The translations under genes were made by a program, and so were the position numbers. The notes beneath the pieces are model-generated. The model saw only the letters and a list, made by a program, of their open reading frames with translations, was not told the origin of the DNA and searched no databases. From a virus, in IMG/VR virus record IMGVR_UViG_3300037635_004285, positions 1-28,823 of that record: DNA of 28,823 nucleotides, one strand, 5' to 3'. Positions 3,847 through 27,599 of this stretch are shown piece after piece. Each line of letters starts with the position of its first letter. Positions within the stretch are counted from its first letter, which is position 1.

Positions 3847-3854
3847 TATAAATA
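3847..3854 (+). promoter_or_regulatory. T4-type late promoter, rightward
   Basis: A perfect TATAAATA octamer. T4 spacing predicts a start at 3860 and a 38-base leader for the tape-measure-like gene at 3898, which has no evident Shine-Dalgarno sequence. Confidence 0.7.
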
Positions 3855-7767: not shown

Positions 7768-8007
7768 ATGATTTTACTAGAACTATTTGGTCAAAATGAA
7801 GAGAAAGATGATGACGGTCGTTACGATCCAGAGTCTGACCAAACTATTATTAAAAAATCAGATACACGTAAAACAAGATTAACATTAACACAAATTAATA
7901 AGCTTAGAAAAATTTCAGAGTTAAGAGCGGCTGAAAAAATACAAGACGCTGAAAAATATCAAAAGCAGTATGGTGCAACGCCAGAACCTGCTATGCCTGC
8001 TATGTAA
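7768..8007 (+). CDS. 67: Prohead core protein gp67
   Basis: The protein has 79 residues, close to the 80 of T4 gp67, with an acidic N-terminal half (EEKDDDGRYDPESDQ) and a charged helix (RLTLTQINKLRKISELRAAEKI, of which the last part is typical). It occupies the conserved slot right after the portal gene. gp67 is a minor component of the prohead scaffold that is degraded by the gp21 protease during maturation and affects head length. There is no Shine-Dalgarno sequence, and the late promoter octamer ends 5 bases before the ATG. Identification rests mainly on position, size and composition. Confidence 0.75.
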   Translation: MILLELFGQNEEKDDDGRYDPESDQTIIKKSDTRKTRLTLTQINKLRKISELRAAEKIQDAEKYQKQYGATPEPAMPAM

Positions 8008-8040
8008 TAAAAATAAACAGAAAAACCCTTTTTCTTGTCG

Positions 8041-8290
8041 CTTTGGCATCATTCGAGTATAATATTAGTCTCCTTTGTTAAATATATAAAAGGAATGATT
8101 TCGCTATGAGTAATAAATTTGAACAGTTGCTTGAATATATCATCAACGAAGAGCAAGATAAAGCTAAAGAGCTTTTCCATGAAATTATTGTGGATAAATC
8201 TCGCGAGATTTATGAAGGCTTGATTGATGAGCAAGATCTTGAAGCTATCGAAGAGGAAATTGAAGAAGTAGATGAAGAAATTTCCAAATT
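8041..8290 (+). repeat. Copy 1 of a duplicated promoter plus 5' coding block
   Basis: Sequence from about 8041 to about 8290 is repeated at about 9387-9660. The shared part includes TTTGGCA, CCTTTGTTAAATATA, the ribosome binding site context TGATTTCGCTATG and the first 60 codons. The encoded first 60 residues are identical at 52 positions. Copy 1 lacks a 25-base segment present between promoter and ribosome binding site in copy 2. Confidence 0.85.
8077..8084 (+). promoter_or_regulatory. Putative late promoter, copy 1
   Basis: GTTAAATA is followed by AAAAGGA and the ATG at 8106. T4 spacing predicts a start near 8090, leaving a short leader that begins at the ribosome binding site. Confidence 0.5.
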
Positions 8291-9362
8291 TTATAATCAA
8301 ATATTAACTGAAGCAGATTTGCCGCCAGGCGAATTGAAAAAGCTCCATAGCGATATAGCCAAGATTCGTCGGGATACAGGTACTCAATCTGCTGAACATA
8401 ATGCTTTCTTTAAAAAATTAACGAAGGAAATTATTAATAATAATGTAGAAGGATTTAAGAATTTTATTAATAAAAAACCTGAGCCTTTAATGCCTTACCA
8501 AAAAGGATCTTATGTTGATCAACCTGAGAAGGCGCAAGATTTAGAATATGTTAAACGTAAGGCACCTGAGCAATGGGAGGCAATTATGGCTGTCCCGGCT
8601 GACAGTTCGATGCCCCCTGAATTTAAGCCAGGAACTGCAACAGTATATATGCAATTTCATGGTTCAGTAGAAGATGATATTGCTATGTGGGTCAGTAGAG
8701 TGTTTGGTGGTGAAGACGCAGAGATTGAAGATGAAGATGAAGGTGCTCGTCCAGGGCAACATCCTTTTCGGAAATTTTGGGATTTGGTTCATGATGAAGA
8801 ATTTATGAACAATGCAAACCCTGGTATTGTAAAAAAACTTACTGCTGTTAAAAAGAAATACATCAATGGCACATACAATCTTTATAATCTTGAAAAAACA
8901 ACAAAAAAGCTTATGGCTGACCTCGGTCAAAGATGGAAACATGATAAAGTAGAAAGGCAACGTTTAGAGACAGAAGCACCAATTATAATGAGATTTGATA
9001 ATGGTTTTATGTGGGTGCGTTTAGATTCTATAGAAGAAATGCAACGCGAAGGCGACATGATGCAAAATTGCATTAGTGGTTATTGTCCAGTTGGCATAGA
9101 AGCCGATGATGATATAGAAACTGGAGCAACTCCCGGTGGCCATTTAATTTATAGTTTGCGTGATAAGAATGGGGAATCTCATATATCTGCAGAATATGAT
9201 CCAGATGTAGATATGAATAATATACAGCCAACAGAAGCATTAGGCAAACAAAATAAAACAGCCATTAACAAATATAAACCATATATTAAAAAATTAAATG
9301 ACTTCTTTGCAGAGAATCCTGAAACATTTGGTCCTAAAGGCAACACACAGGAAATGCAATAA
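8106..9362 (+). CDS. Chimera: gp68-like prohead core N-terminus fused to a PcfJ-like region
   Basis: The protein has 418 residues. Residues 1-60 match the following core protein gene at 52 of 60 positions, including IYEG at 35-38, a possible gp21 cleavage site. Residue 61 onward is unrelated. The middle (about 61-285) has no family I recognise. The C-terminal part (about 290-405) resembles PcfJ-type domains: VRLDSIEEMQREGDMMQNCI, then HLIYSLRDKNGESHISAEYD, and ALGKQNKTAINKYKPYIKKL. PcfJ-like proteins occur on plasmids and phages; their biochemical role is unclear to me. The promoter, ribosome binding site and start region are copied from the core protein gene. The gene ends in a palindromic terminator. 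A capsid-targeted cargo is inferred. Confidence 0.75.
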   Translation: MSNKFEQLLEYIINEEQDKAKELFHEIIVDKSREIYEGLIDEQDLEAIEEEIEEVDEEISKFYNQILTEADLPPGELKKLHSDIAKIRRDTGTQSAEHNAFFKKLTKEIINNNVEGFKNFINKKPEPLMPYQKGSYVDQPEKAQDLEYVKRKAPEQWEAIMAVPADSSMPPEFKPGTATVYMQFHGSVEDDIAMWVSRVFGGEDAEIEDEDEGARPGQHPFRKFWDLVHDEEFMNNANPGIVKKLTAVKKKYINGTYNLYNLEKTTKKLMADLGQRWKHDKVERQRLETEAPIIMRFDNGFMWVRLDSIEEMQREGDMMQNCISGYCPVGIEADDDIETGATPGGHLIYSLRDKNGESHISAEYDPDVDMNNIQPTEALGKQNKTAINKYKPYIKKLNDFFAENPETFGPKGNTQEMQ

Positions 9363-9380
9363 GCAGATCTGCTTATTTTT
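9358..9380 (+). terminator. Intrinsic terminator overlapping the chimera's stop codon
   Basis: AATAAGCAGATCTGCTTATT is a perfect 20-base palindrome followed by TTT. It folds as an 8-pair stem with loop GATC and includes the TAA stop (9360-9362). It would separate the chimera from the core protein gene that follows. Confidence 0.6.
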
Positions 9381-9386
9381 ATGCCA

Positions 9387-9660
9387 TTTTGGCACTGTTT
9401 GAGCATAGAAACAGTTTCCTTTGTTAAATATAGATGATATTTTGTAACTTTTATATATAAAAGGAGTGATTTCGCTATGAGTAATAAATTTGAACAGTTG
9501 CTAGATTACATCATCAACGAAGAGCAAGATAAAGCTCGCGAACTTTTCCACGAAGTTGTTGTTGAAAAGTCACGTGAAATTTATGAAGGCTTAATTGATG
9601 AACAAGATCTTGATGCTATCGAAGAAGAGATTGAAGAAGTTGAAGAAGCAATCTCAGACG
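9387..9660 (+). repeat. Copy 2 of the duplicated promoter plus 5' coding block
   Basis: This is the partner of the block at 8041-8290. It carries a 25-base insertion (around 9433-9457) between CCTTTGTTAAATATA and TATAAAAGGAG. Homology to copy 1 ends at about codon 60 of the gene at 9477. Confidence 0.85.
9423..9430 (+). promoter_or_regulatory. Putative late promoter, copy 2
   Basis: GTTAAATA is identical to copy 1. T4 spacing predicts a start at 9436 and a 41-base leader that ends in an AAAAGGAG ribosome binding site. Confidence 0.5.
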
Positions 9661-10187
9661 AGGAAGTAGAAGATTTTGTTAGTGATATTGAAGGCGACGA
9701 AGAAGGTATGTCTCTAGAAGACGCAAGTGAAGAACTTGACGACGCTATGGACATGGAAGATGAAGGTGACTACGAAGGTGACGAAGAAGAAGCCGACGAA
9801 GAAACCGACGAAAGAATCAGTGATTTAGAATCTGCATTTGATGAACTTCAAGCAGAATTCGACAAGTTAATGTCAAGCGTTGAAGGCGATGATGCTGAAG
9901 AAGAAGCTGACATGGACGACATGGAAGACGAAATGGAAGAATCCGTTGAGTCAGACGAAGATTTAGAAGAGTCAGAAGAAGTAGTTGCTGAAGCTGCTGA
10001 ACTAAAGCCAGTGCCTGCCCCAACAGGCGGCGCAAGTGAAGGTTCATCACCAGTTGCATCAGGTGGTAAGGCAAGCAATGATGCTCATGAACCAGGTGCA
10101 ATGTCATCAGGCGAAGGTAAGAGTGCCCCTGCTCCAAAGGCAGACGATATGGACATGACTACAGAACCAGACATGAAGAAGGTTTAA
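9477..10187 (+). CDS. 68: Acidic prohead core protein, gp68-like
   Basis: The protein has 236 residues. The N-terminal 60 residues are helical and charged (MSNKFEQLLDYIINEEQDKA onward), followed by a strongly acidic region rich in Asp/Glu (about 60-165) and a Pro/Ala/Gly/Ser-rich tail (about 178-236). This composition and its place between gp67 and gp21 fit a minor prohead scaffold protein. It is longer than T4 gp68 (about 140 residues), so the gp68 name is by position and not proven homology. A possible maturation cleavage site, IYE before G38, agrees with the T4 gp21 rule. It has a clear AAGGAG ribosome binding site. Its promoter and first 60 codons are duplicated upstream in the chimera. 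Confidence 0.72.
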   Translation: MSNKFEQLLDYIINEEQDKARELFHEVVVEKSREIYEGLIDEQDLDAIEEEIEEVEEAISDEEVEDFVSDIEGDEEGMSLEDASEELDDAMDMEDEGDYEGDEEEADEETDERISDLESAFDELQAEFDKLMSSVEGDDAEEEADMDDMEDEMEESVESDEDLEESEEVVAEAAELKPVPAPTGGASEGSSPVASGGKASNDAHEPGAMSSGEGKSAPAPKADDMDMTTEPDMKKV

Positions 10188-10199
10188 CAGGTAAACGAA

Positions 10200-10823
10200 A
10201 TGACTTATCTAAGAGAACACTTGACATTTGACCAAGCTCGTATTGTAACTGAGACCGATTCAGAAGGCAAGAATTTATACATGAAGGGTATTTGCATCCA
10301 AGGTGGTGTAAAGAACGCTAATAAACGTGTATATCCTGTTGATGAAATCCAAACGGCGGTATCAAGTTTGAATGAGCAAATCAATCAAGGTAACTCTGTT
10401 CTAGGCGAAGTTGACCATCCAGACGATCTTAAGATTAACTTAGATCGTGTTTCCCACATGGTTTCAGAAATGTGGATGGATGGCCCAAACGGTTATGGTA
10501 AACTTAAAGTCCTGCCAACACCAATGGGTAACTTAGTTAAAACGATGCTAGAGTCAGGTGTTAAATTAGGAGTTTCATCCAGAGGAAGCGGCAATGTTCG
10601 TGAAACCTCTGGAGACGTTTCAGATTTTGAAATCGTTACTATTGATATAGTAGCACAACCCAGTGCTCCAGACGCATATCCAACAGCAATTTATGAAGGT
10701 CTCTTAAACATGAGAGGCGGGCATAGAGTGCTTGAGGCAGCTGCTGAAGTACGTGAGAATCAAAAGGCGCAAAAATACCTAAAAGAAAGTATTTTACGCC
10801 TCATAAAGGACCTAAAAATTTAG
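10200..10823 (+). CDS. 21: Prohead maturation protease gp21
   Basis: The 207-residue protein, similar in length to T4 gp21 (212), contains the hallmarks of the T4 prohead serine protease family: GICIQGGVKNANKRVYP near 30-46, the histidine in LGEVDHPDD (H73), and the serine in LGVSSRGSG (S126 or S127), followed by DFEIVTIDIVAQPSAPDAYP. It cleaves core and shell proteins after (L/I)-x-E during capsid maturation and then itself. It follows the core protein gene after 12 bases and precedes the scaffold gene by 9 bases, so it is part of one head operon. The ribosome binding site is weak. Confidence 0.95.
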   Translation: MTYLREHLTFDQARIVTETDSEGKNLYMKGICIQGGVKNANKRVYPVDEIQTAVSSLNEQINQGNSVLGEVDHPDDLKINLDRVSHMVSEMWMDGPNGYGKLKVLPTPMGNLVKTMLESGVKLGVSSRGSGNVRETSGDVSDFEIVTIDIVAQPSAPDAYPTAIYEGLLNMRGGHRVLEAAAEVRENQKAQKYLKESILRLIKDLKI

Positions 10824-10832
10824 GAGAACATT

Positions 10833-11942
10833 ATGTTAGACGTATTTAAACCACTTATCGAAAATAACATTATCTCTGAAGAAGTTCAAGCAGAACTAAC
10901 AGAAGCTTGGGATGCAAAGTTGGCAGAAGCCACTGAGCAAAACAAGGCTGAGTTGCGCGAAGAATTTGCACAAAGATATGAACACGATAAAGAGGCGATT
11001 GTCGAAGCCCTAGATACAATGGTTACAGATTCTCTAAAACAAGAAATCAACGAATTTGTAGAAGATAAGCAAGCATTACTAGCTGAGCGAGTAGCATACA
11101 AGACAGCAGTAACAGAGCATGCCGATATTCTAAGCAAGTTCGTAACAGAGAATCTAGCATCTGAAATGGGCGAGTTCCGTGCTGATAGAGGCACACAGGC
11201 TCAAACAATTCAGAAACTAGAAGATTTCGTAATCAAAGCATTAAGCGAAGAGATTGTTGAATTCAACGAAGACAAAAAAGACGTAGTTGAAACAAAAGTA
11301 AGACTAGTAGCAGAAGCAAAAGCAAAACTAGCCGAACTTAAGAAAACATTCATTGAGCGTAGTGCTAAGATGGTTGAAGAGACTGTCACTAAAACTATTA
11401 AGGGTGAGATGTCACAACTTAAAGAAGATATCCAGATTGCTCGTGAGAACAATTTTGGACGTCAATTATTTGAAGCATATGCCGCGGAGTATGCCCATTC
11501 ATATTTGAATGAGAATACAGAAGTAGCTAAGCTAAGCAAAGAACTTTCAGAGATGGAAGAGGTGTTGGCTGAAGCCAATAAAACAATTGAAGAAAAGGAT
11601 GCACTCGTAGAGGCAAAAATGAGTGAAATCAATATTATGAACGACCAAGCAAGCAGAAAAGACGTTCTTTCACAACTACTTTCACCATTGGCGAAAGAGA
11701 AGAAAGACGTAATGGAAAGTTTACTTGAATCAGTTCAAACTGAGAAACTTAAAGCATCTTTTGACAAATACCTACCAGCGGTTATTAATGGCGATGGTAA
11801 TGGTATTAAACGCAAACTTACAGAAGGTACAGCAAAGAAAGAAGTAACTGGTGACCGCGAAGTTGTTACGGAAGAACGTGCAACAGAGCAACAAGCATCT
11901 ACATCTAACATTGTTGACTTGAAGAAGTTAGCAGGATTATAA
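10833..11942 (+). CDS. 22: Major prohead scaffold protein gp22
   Basis: The 369-residue protein is almost wholly helical and charged, with long coiled-coil stretches (for example about 215-270, AKLSKELSEMEEVLAEANK) and a C-terminal region with LSPLAKEKKDVMESLLESV near 287-305 that is typical of T4-like scaffold proteins. It is longer than T4 gp22 (269). gp22 forms the inner core around which gp23 assembles and is degraded by gp21 before packaging. An AGGAG ribosome binding site lies 8 bases before the ATG. Position between gp21 and gp23 is the conserved one. Confidence 0.9.
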   Translation: MLDVFKPLIENNIISEEVQAELTEAWDAKLAEATEQNKAELREEFAQRYEHDKEAIVEALDTMVTDSLKQEINEFVEDKQALLAERVAYKTAVTEHADILSKFVTENLASEMGEFRADRGTQAQTIQKLEDFVIKALSEEIVEFNEDKKDVVETKVRLVAEAKAKLAELKKTFIERSAKMVEETVTKTIKGEMSQLKEDIQIARENNFGRQLFEAYAAEYAHSYLNENTEVAKLSKELSEMEEVLAEANKTIEEKDALVEAKMSEINIMNDQASRKDVLSQLLSPLAKEKKDVMESLLESVQTEKLKASFDKYLPAVINGDGNGIKRKLTEGTAKKEVTGDREVVTEERATEQQASTSNIVDLKKLAGL

Positions 11943-11972: not shown

Positions 11973-13145
11973 ATGTCAGAACTATTAAATGAAAACTGGA
12001 GCGAAACCAAAGACGCACTTTTAGAGGGTCTTTCAGGTTCAGCTCGTAGTACAATGGCAGTAACTCTAGAAAATACAAAAAGTTATCTAGCAGAAGCTGC
12101 AACAGCCGGCGCATCAACATCAGGTAATGTTGCAACACTTAACAGAGTAATTTTACCAGTAATCCGCCGTGTAATGCCATCAGTAATTGCTAACGAAATC
12201 GTTGGCGTTCAACCAATGGCAGGTCCAGTGGGCCAAATCCACACATTGAGAGTACGTTACGCAGACGCATTCACAGGCAGTGCAGGTGGTAACACAACAG
12301 CAGGCGAAGAGGCATTAAGCCCATTCAAAGTTGCTGAAGGTTACTCAGGCAACGTTGCTTCAGCTGATACAGCAGGCGCAACAGCAGCTAATGAAGGCTC
12401 AGCAGGTAACAGACTAAGCATTCAAATCTTGAAGCAACCAGTAGAAGCAAAGACACGTAAGCTATCAGCACGTTGGACTTTCGAAGCTGCTCAAGATGCT
12501 AACTCAATGCACGGTATTGACATGGAAGCAGAAATCATGTCAGCACTAGCACAAGAGATTACAGCTGAAATTGATCAAGAGATTCTACGTTCACTACGTG
12601 GTATCGCATCAACAGACTTCACATTCGACCAAACAGGCGTTTCAGGTACAGCAACATACGTTGGTGACGAACACGCCGCATTGGCAGTAACAATGAACCG
12701 CGCAGCCAACGCTATCGCACAACGCACACGTCGTGGTGCCGGTAACTGGGCAGTTGTAGGTACAGACGCACTAACAGCAATTCAATCTGCTTCAACAAGT
12801 GCATTTGCTCGTACAACAGAAGGTTCATTTGAAGCACCAGTTAACCAAAAGATGGTTGGCACACTAAACGGTGCAATGAAAGTTTACGTTGATACATACC
12901 AAGGTACAAACGATTCAGTACTAGTAGGTTATAAGGGTTCAAGCGAAGCAGACGCAGCCGCTTTCTATTGCCCATACATTCCTCTAATGTCATCAGGTAC
13001 AGTATTAGATCCTGATACATTCGAGCCAGTCGTAGGCTTCATGACACGTTATGGTTATGTTGCACTAACAAACACAGCATCATCACTAGGTAATGCTGGC
13101 GACTACCTACAAAAAATCAACATCTCAAACCTATCATTTGTATAA
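11973..13145 (+). CDS. 23: Major capsid protein gp23
   Basis: The protein has 390 residues, shorter than T4 gp23 (521). The N-terminal MSELLNENWSETKDALLEGL delta region ends at LAE (39-41) followed by AATAGAS, which fits gp21 cleavage at (L/I)-x-E, giving a mature subunit of about 349 residues. RVILPVIRRVMPSVIANEIV (58-77), the VQPMAGPVGQIHTLRVRY segment (79-96) and the YVALTNTASSLGNAGDYLQK C-terminal region are diagnostic of the family. Two Shine-Dalgarno-like AGGAG elements precede the ATG, consistent with high expression, and a strong terminator follows at 13169. No gp24-type vertex protein gene follows. Confidence 0.96.
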   Translation: MSELLNENWSETKDALLEGLSGSARSTMAVTLENTKSYLAEAATAGASTSGNVATLNRVILPVIRRVMPSVIANEIVGVQPMAGPVGQIHTLRVRYADAFTGSAGGNTTAGEEALSPFKVAEGYSGNVASADTAGATAANEGSAGNRLSIQILKQPVEAKTRKLSARWTFEAAQDANSMHGIDMEAEIMSALAQEITAEIDQEILRSLRGIASTDFTFDQTGVSGTATYVGDEHAALAVTMNRAANAIAQRTRRGAGNWAVVGTDALTAIQSASTSAFARTTEGSFEAPVNQKMVGTLNGAMKVYVDTYQGTNDSVLVGYKGSSEADAAAFYCPYIPLMSSGTVLDPDTFEPVVGFMTRYGYVALTNTASSLGNAGDYLQKINISNLSFV

Positions 13146-26843: not shown

Positions 26844-27599
26844 TTGGCAAAGATAGAAATCGCACGTTATTTAGAAGATTATGATGGTGAATATGTTGTG
26901 TCTGGTATTGTTGTAAAAAATGGTAGACGACACCAAGATAGATATTGGATTCCAAATATGATATCGAACAGTGATCATAAAAAACATGCGTTTGTTGTCG
27001 GCAATGGTGTTTCCCGCACGTCAATGAGTACGTTTAGATTAAGTTTTCTTACCAATTCCGGCGGCGGCCATTTAGGAAAACACAAAGCACAATGTTATGG
27101 ATGTAATGCTGTATATAGAGATTGGAACCCTGATTTTTTAGTATGTACAAATGATAAAATGGTCGACGATATTGTTGAAGAAGGTTACGCAGAAAATAAT
27201 GTAGTTTTTGGAAGAGCAACCTCTTTATTAAAGTATCCAGAATATGTATCTCTTATTCCGCATGATCCGAGAATGAACTGCGGCGCAACAGCAACATATC
27301 TCGCTTGTTTTCACGGACATACAACAATTTATCTATTAGGGTTTGATAATCAACCAAACTCAAAATCCACAAATAATAACGTATACGCAGGATCAAAACA
27401 TTACGCTCCAGTTACTGAAAATTCTGGAGATGAAGTTTGGCGCAATAACATGTCAAAAGTGTTTAACACTTATAAAGATGTAGAGTTTATTAGAGTAACT
27501 ACAGAAGGCATGGAAGGTGAAATGCCAGACGAGTGGAAATGGCACAGAAATTTAAGACAAATTAGTTTAAAAAAGTTTTTTATCGAAGCAGATATTTAA
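26844..27599 (+). CDS. Glycosyltransferase-like protein (DUF115/GT42-type pattern)
   Basis: The 251-residue frame uses a TTG start, chosen because AGGAGG at 26830-26835 is 8 bases upstream. An ATG at 26839 lies closer to the ribosome binding site but in another frame that stops after five codons. HAFVVGNGVSRTSM (about 48-61) matches the nucleotide-binding GNGxS loop of the DUF115 and family 42 sialyltransferase group; PDFLVCTNDKMVDD follows, and TTIYLLGFDNQPNS (about 160-173) fits the later LLGFD strand. A role in modifying host or virion glycans is possible. The family is suggested by motif order only. Its stop shares TTAA with the convergent Nudix gene. Confidence 0.5.
   Translation: MAKIEIARYLEDYDGEYVVSGIVVKNGRRHQDRYWIPNMISNSDHKKHAFVVGNGVSRTSMSTFRLSFLTNSGGGHLGKHKAQCYGCNAVYRDWNPDFLVCTNDKMVDDIVEEGYAENNVVFGRATSLLKYPEYVSLIPHDPRMNCGATATYLACFHGHTTIYLLGFDNQPNSKSTNNNVYAGSKHYAPVTENSGDEVWRNNMSKVFNTYKDVEFIRVTTEGMEGEMPDEWKWHRNLRQISLKKFFIEADI

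Follow-up and report, generated by a model that had tools for sequence, protein, structure and literature searches.

A natural fusion of a prohead-core head to a PcfJ-like protein as candidate capsid-delivered cargo in an uncultured phage

The internal proteins of phage T4 (IPI–IPIII and Alt) carry a short N-terminal leader that ends in a prohead-protease motif and precedes unrelated cargo, and at the polymorphic ip loci of T-even phages, as Repoila is said to have described in 1994, small cargo genes are reportedly gained and exchanged between related phages. According to PMC9026906, the 10-residue T4 leader directs targeting mainly through its first part (residues 4 and 7), residues 8 and 10 serve processing, and gp21 cuts after L/I-x-E; the paper also covers laboratory fusions in which IPIII, or its leader, was joined to a foreign protein. 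The locus described here shares with the internal proteins a short leader ending in such a motif before unrelated cargo and a head protease of the same family, but a 60-residue head of a core protein replaces the leader tip, the cargo is PcfJ-like and packaging is predicted. As in the laboratory fusions, a prohead component lies in frame upstream of the cargo, but here the fusion is natural and its head is that of a core protein, not of an internal protein. Unlike the ip loci, this locus has a head derived from a core gene, and a single fusion was found.

The gene, from a giant phage, is a chimera with a foreign-like head; relatives have an empty site in its place; an LxE|A joint is retained; and homologues of the cargo bear leaders. 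From these observations we infer a natural scaffold–cargo fusion on the T4 internal-protein plan, in which the cargo is, on balance, probably targeted to the capsid by the scaffold head, freed by the S77 protease and ejected with the DNA.

A chimeric gene among the prohead core genes

The window, that is, the whole 28,823-base virus record analysed, is accompanied by a second record of 114 kb (G001) that shows the same arrangement, with 10 scattered differences over the 28,823 bases and 0 inside the chimera. The gene order (portal, small core protein, chimera, core protein, S77 protease, gp22-position protein and major head protein, with all features given here on the + strand) matches, apart from the chimera, the T4 order 20-67-68-21-22-23. 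The small core protein (7768..8007), in the place of T4 gene 67, matches phrog_13986, a family of unknown function; the resident prohead core protein (9477..10187, from the ORF call) has a homologue in PA5oct, gp332; the prohead protease (10200..10823; Peptidase_S77, E = 6.9e-26), a gp21-type enzyme encoded in the same genome, as for T4-type internal proteins, is the presumed cutter of the fusion; and the major head protein (11973..13145, from annotation and a site scan) has YLAE|A after residue 41. The core protein had previously been called gp68-like, a description that rests on gene position; by sequence the scores of the head profile are negligible: 3.1 bits against T4 gp67 over the whole sequence (best domain 4.9), a score reached by about 4 of 1000 shuffles of the first 45 residues of gp67 (top 4.5), and 2.5 bits against T4 gp68, a score without a shuffle control. 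Matches to TATAAATA occur in the window at 3847, 7755, 14016 and 15798, all four on the + strand and 13–51 bases upstream of gene starts, as T4 late promoters are, with a count that is itself near chance.

Upstream of the resident core gene lies an intact gene of 418 codons (8106..9362, from the ORF call; also in G001), whose product shares 52 of its first 60 residues with the neighbouring core protein (85% over 61 residues, E = 4.1e-26). Directly past codon 60, the DNA match per 30-nt block falls from 24/30 to 8/30, and a recount together with these block identities bears out the match and its abrupt end as described in an earlier note on this DNA. The prohead-core head (codons 1–60; 8106..8285) is followed by a stretch of cargo leader, KFYNQILTE (residues 61–69; 8286..8312), with a candidate protease site after E69, then by the PcfJ-like cargo module (residues 70–418; 8313..9359) and, at the cargo stop codon, by a terminator-like element seen by eye, in which the palindrome AAGCAGATCTGCTT precedes a T-rich run (9361..9379).

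The empty site and the source of the head

In two relatives whose flanks are 95–97% identical to those of the window (L282 and L288), the small gene runs straight into the core gene, leaving an empty site; the two are 99.9% identical to each other and so count as one lineage. The window has 1355 more bases between portal stop and core start (1718) than L282 has (363), and judged from this comparison the chimera is a recent gain of ~1.36 kb. Both the head and the segment upstream of the core gene exist twice, as direct repeats of 203 bases, with the alignment placing copy 1 before the chimera (8030..8105, ~25 nt shorter than at the empty site, with TTAAATATA at 8078-8086) and copy 2 before the resident core gene (9376..9476, with TTAAATATA at 9424-9432). 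A metagenomic contig with near-repeats, in two records that are perhaps not independent, invites the explanation that the arrangement is an assembly artefact, but we regard this as extremely improbable, since the longer second record repeats the arrangement with scattered differences and the direct repeats are merely 87% alike. Confinement to one lineage, with an empty site in relatives this close, would also suit a chance recombinant that is recent, has no lasting use and will soon be lost, and the flanking direct repeats could delete the chimera; we consider this unlikely, because the 418-codon frame is open, shows no difference between the two records and retains the conserved motifs of the module.

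Over its 180 bases, the chimera head shares 98.3% DNA identity with the core heads of three other phages (L007, L008 and L009) and 86% with that of its neighbour, but the flanking genes of the window (small gene, portal, protease, gp22-position and gp23 genes) are just 72–84% identical to those of L007–L009, where present, so that import from such a phage is the simplest reading. The head thus looks imported from an L007/L009-like phage and not copied from the adjacent core gene, contrary to the proposal that it arose by duplication of the neighbour's 5' end. The segment upstream of the chimera head is of the resident type by resemblance (from the alignment, by eye).

Among 80 loci with a core head that were surveyed, two head-bearing ORFs were present only in the window and in L001, L096, L097, L105, L107 and L121, all of which are the window phage. 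A 36-base head-start pattern was found in 16 stretches of the viral collection and twice only in the G001 stretch, although some pattern-bearing stretches (for example, L007, L280 and L287) start too near the head for an upstream second copy to show. Exchangeable cargos on the same N-terminus, which had been anticipated, were therefore not seen in this survey, in which many loci are too short and the sole two-head locus is that of the window phage; nor did the relatives reveal an old paralogue family without cargo variation. Unfused ORFs occupy the same or a nearby place in L018, L019, L055, L093 and L094, and by eye a window protein encoded at 26844-27599 looks like the products of L018 427-1005 and L019 4412-4987 beside the core gene.

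The cargo family and its own leader

The remaining 358 residues of the chimera belong to a small family, whose 15 loci, that of the window phage included, lie on 14 viral contigs (homologues in L002–L006 and L108–L116), and 0 of 16 pattern matches in bacterial genomes encode a relative. A PcfJ-like C-terminus had been suggested, and a match was indeed found, at a sub-threshold level: PF14284 (PcfJ) aligns with the C-terminal half at E = 4.5e-4 and 20.5 bits, below the curated cut-off of 25, and matches at E ≤ 0.01 in 4 of 7 aligned members, that of the window included. The chimera resembles PcfJ-like proteins further in a weak match of residues 312–366 to WJZ48068 of DSL-LC04, a phage in which the PcfJ-like gene lies between terminase and portal. 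PcfJ matches were absent from PA5oct and T4, the PDB gave no relative by sequence up to E = 5, and the open-access literature covered gave no match for 'PcfJ-like' together with phage. The model of the whole chimera has a mean pLDDT of 61.5, with the C-terminal domain (residues 272–411; 8919..9338) better modelled, and the 50 VIA rows listed for that domain are acetyltransferases or their complexes, at Z scores of 5.7–7.2, a level that the tool labels as possibly a common arrangement. Foldseek returned no match for residues 272–411 at E ≤ 0.001, and modelled alone these residues reached a pLDDT of 49.5, worse than within the whole chimera. The models are only suggestive of a GNAT-like acetyltransferase fold in this domain, and an early enzymatic role of the cargo in the host is a guess, made with low confidence.

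The cargo gene lies ~75 kb away from the core gene in G004, G008 and G009; in G009 and G004 it is flanked by a MASHTK.. gene and a MLLLEKYEYS.. gene, and its product starts MLLAEFFNPIL(I/T)EA. This distance, and the possession of its own leader, argue against a structural role of the fusion within the core, with an effect on head assembly, in place of a cargo role; such a structural role we think very unlikely even though the protein has the head of a core protein and sits among core genes. Cargo homologues open with a short leader that closes in LxE|A (MLLAEFFNPILTE|A), a pattern found in 8 of the 9 distinct intact starts (the exception is L006 4768), a count that omits the near copies L109, L110, L112 and L116 and the cut or broken L005 and L113, and that uses for L111 an internal ATG picked by the analyst. 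The chimera reads EEIS-KFYNQILTE|AD, and KFYNQILTE aligns, as protein and as DNA, with EFFNPILTE|A of L004 and EFFNPILIE|A of L108. At the junction, the DNA alignment with L004 begins at codon 5 of the latter (L108 has the same start), so that the join dropped four leader residues (MLLA) and kept 9 of 13. A leader ending in L/I-x-E before A, G or S, as in T4-type internal proteins, is thus present (ILTE|A, residues 66–70), and a 10–19-residue targeting sequence at the very start is missing from the chimera, its first four leader residues having been swapped for the 60-residue head; the homologues, unlike the chimera, do have the short leader at the very start. It follows that the fusion did not create a targeting tag, as had been supposed, since the cargo family already had an LxE|A leader that the chimera mostly retains. 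A supposed fusion in L113/L114 was dropped, as the contig there has unknown bases and a frame break.

With 9 of the 13 leader residues still in place, the head may be dispensable for targeting, and the cargo may instead have recombined behind the core upstream segment and ribosome site, both of which the duplicated unit takes in, with the head as a passenger that has no targeting role; what is left of the leader might still get the protein packaged, or the protein might act in the infected cell. Such a capture of expression signals has no need of an in-frame 60-residue head, and the homologues have leaders without any such swap; we find it doubtful, although it carries more weight than the alternatives above. 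For the cleavage that capsid delivery would entail, the earlier note had pointed to IYE before Gly38 of the chimera, alongside LAE before Ala42 of the major head protein. The site scan found both, and IYE is kept in 64 of 66 core heads, but G or S follows it in just 38 of the 66 (24 of 47 distinct heads), so that IYE37 seems to belong to the core head as such and its fit to the protease rule is doubtful; ILTE69 is the better cleavage candidate.

A tight leader motif, fitted to these phages and chosen after examples had been seen, matched 6 of 257 called proteins in T4, compared with 3 of 942 internal methionines (the matches include ipII, ipIII and gp22 and miss Alt), 3 of 432 compared with 3 of 1163 controls in PA5oct (gp333 and gp246, both with mass spectrometry (MS) notes, and gp103, without one), and 10 of 769 proteins compared with 8 of 3739 internal methionines in G001, G004 and G009 together (G004 being searched over 320 of 322.6 kb), an enrichment; some matches look false, and the gene calls behind these counts are our own and crude. 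A loose leader motif showed no genome-wide enrichment over controls (G001, 9 versus 10.8; G009, 18 versus 26.1; G004, 42 versus 32.2). At the other end of the proteins, HLAGI or HLAGV closes PcfJ-like proteins and some of their neighbours in L003, L005, L006 and L112–L116, and gp22-position proteins end in LKKLAGL (window 11900-11942) or LRRLAGIK (PA5oct gp330). The LAGI/LAGV end, possibly a second docking motif, was found in G001, G004 and G009 in one protein each, the gp22-position one.

Proposed delivery route and leaders on viral dismutases

In the capsid-delivery reading, a PcfJ-like cargo gene, which in related phages lies elsewhere with its own leader, would have been joined beside the core gene, its first four codons swapped for a ribosome site and 60 codons of a related phage's core protein, and a duplicate of the segment upstream of the core gene placed in front of the new fusion. 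The fusion protein would presumably be made together with the core proteins and, like the core protein, dock through its head into the prohead scaffold; cleavage after ILTE69 by the S77 prohead protease would then free the cargo within the head, and the freed cargo would be ejected with the DNA, perhaps to act on the host. Capsid delivery, as put forward in the earlier note, is the best-supported reading and is strengthened by the leaders of the homologues, with its proposed origin corrected in two points; that the head fusion is restricted to one lineage counts against it. In PA5oct, the core homologue gp332 and the small protein gp333 (a counterpart by position) carry ESI-MS/MS notes in the record, and gp330 (gp22 position) carries none; the notes on gp332 and gp333 support virion association of the core family. 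No virion proteomics of this phage, or of any PcfJ homologue, was found in the literature looked at.

One cargo homologue extends the pattern to a recognizable enzyme. L002 5992-9285 encodes a single 1097-residue protein consisting of a PcfJ-like module at the start, a middle region and an Fe/Mn superoxide dismutase (residues 577–737, E = 1.3e-22), with GESFIVE|AKEK just ahead of the dismutase. Its seven loose sites are unremarkable beside shuffled sequences (3.9 on average, at most 12), so what counts is where the sites lie and not how many there are. Stand-alone viral dismutases start like this joint (MKLNDFLIE|AKQ.. and similar; for example, L172 1729-2268): L/I-x-E occurs in 62 of 68 leaders, compared with 7.2 on average and at most 14 for internal windows, and in 54 of 58 distinct leaders, with A, G or S after the E in just 45 of the 68. 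These counts come from the best 80 of 551 dismutase-like stretches, of which 70 were parsed (L172–L250) and 68 had a usable leader (L204 and L249, in which the leader is missing, were dropped, and the long fusion of L002 was kept). The PDB dismutases shown for one example align from residue 20 or later only. An S77 protease turned up in 4 of the 17 long dismutase contigs, including both of those >300 kb, and in 0 of 3 PcfJ contigs (L003, L006 and L114), most contigs being fragments. The leader counts suggest that Fe/Mn superoxide dismutase is a capsid-delivered protein in these viruses; the phrase 'phage-encoded superoxide dismutase' had no match in the open-access literature covered. Just upstream of the PcfJ–dismutase gene, a small protein encoded at L002 5552-5995 starts like a leader (MLLTELTE) and matches rifampin ADP-ribosyl transferase below threshold.

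More broadly, we tentatively raise the possibility that targeting and release are separable in natural phage cargo, and that T4-related and jumbo phages may in this way load enzymes, including superoxide dismutase and PcfJ–dismutase polyproteins, and deliver them with their DNA; in the fusion described here, the scaffold head would stand before, and partly replace, the targeting leader, with the protease site kept. Head-borne proteins can influence the early stage of infection and are hard to predict in uncultured phages. A natural fusion in which the front of the leader is altered and its cleavage part is kept would allow the requirements of a targeting signal to be tested directly, and the leader rule predicts cargo, such as the viral superoxide dismutases, across many uncultured phages.
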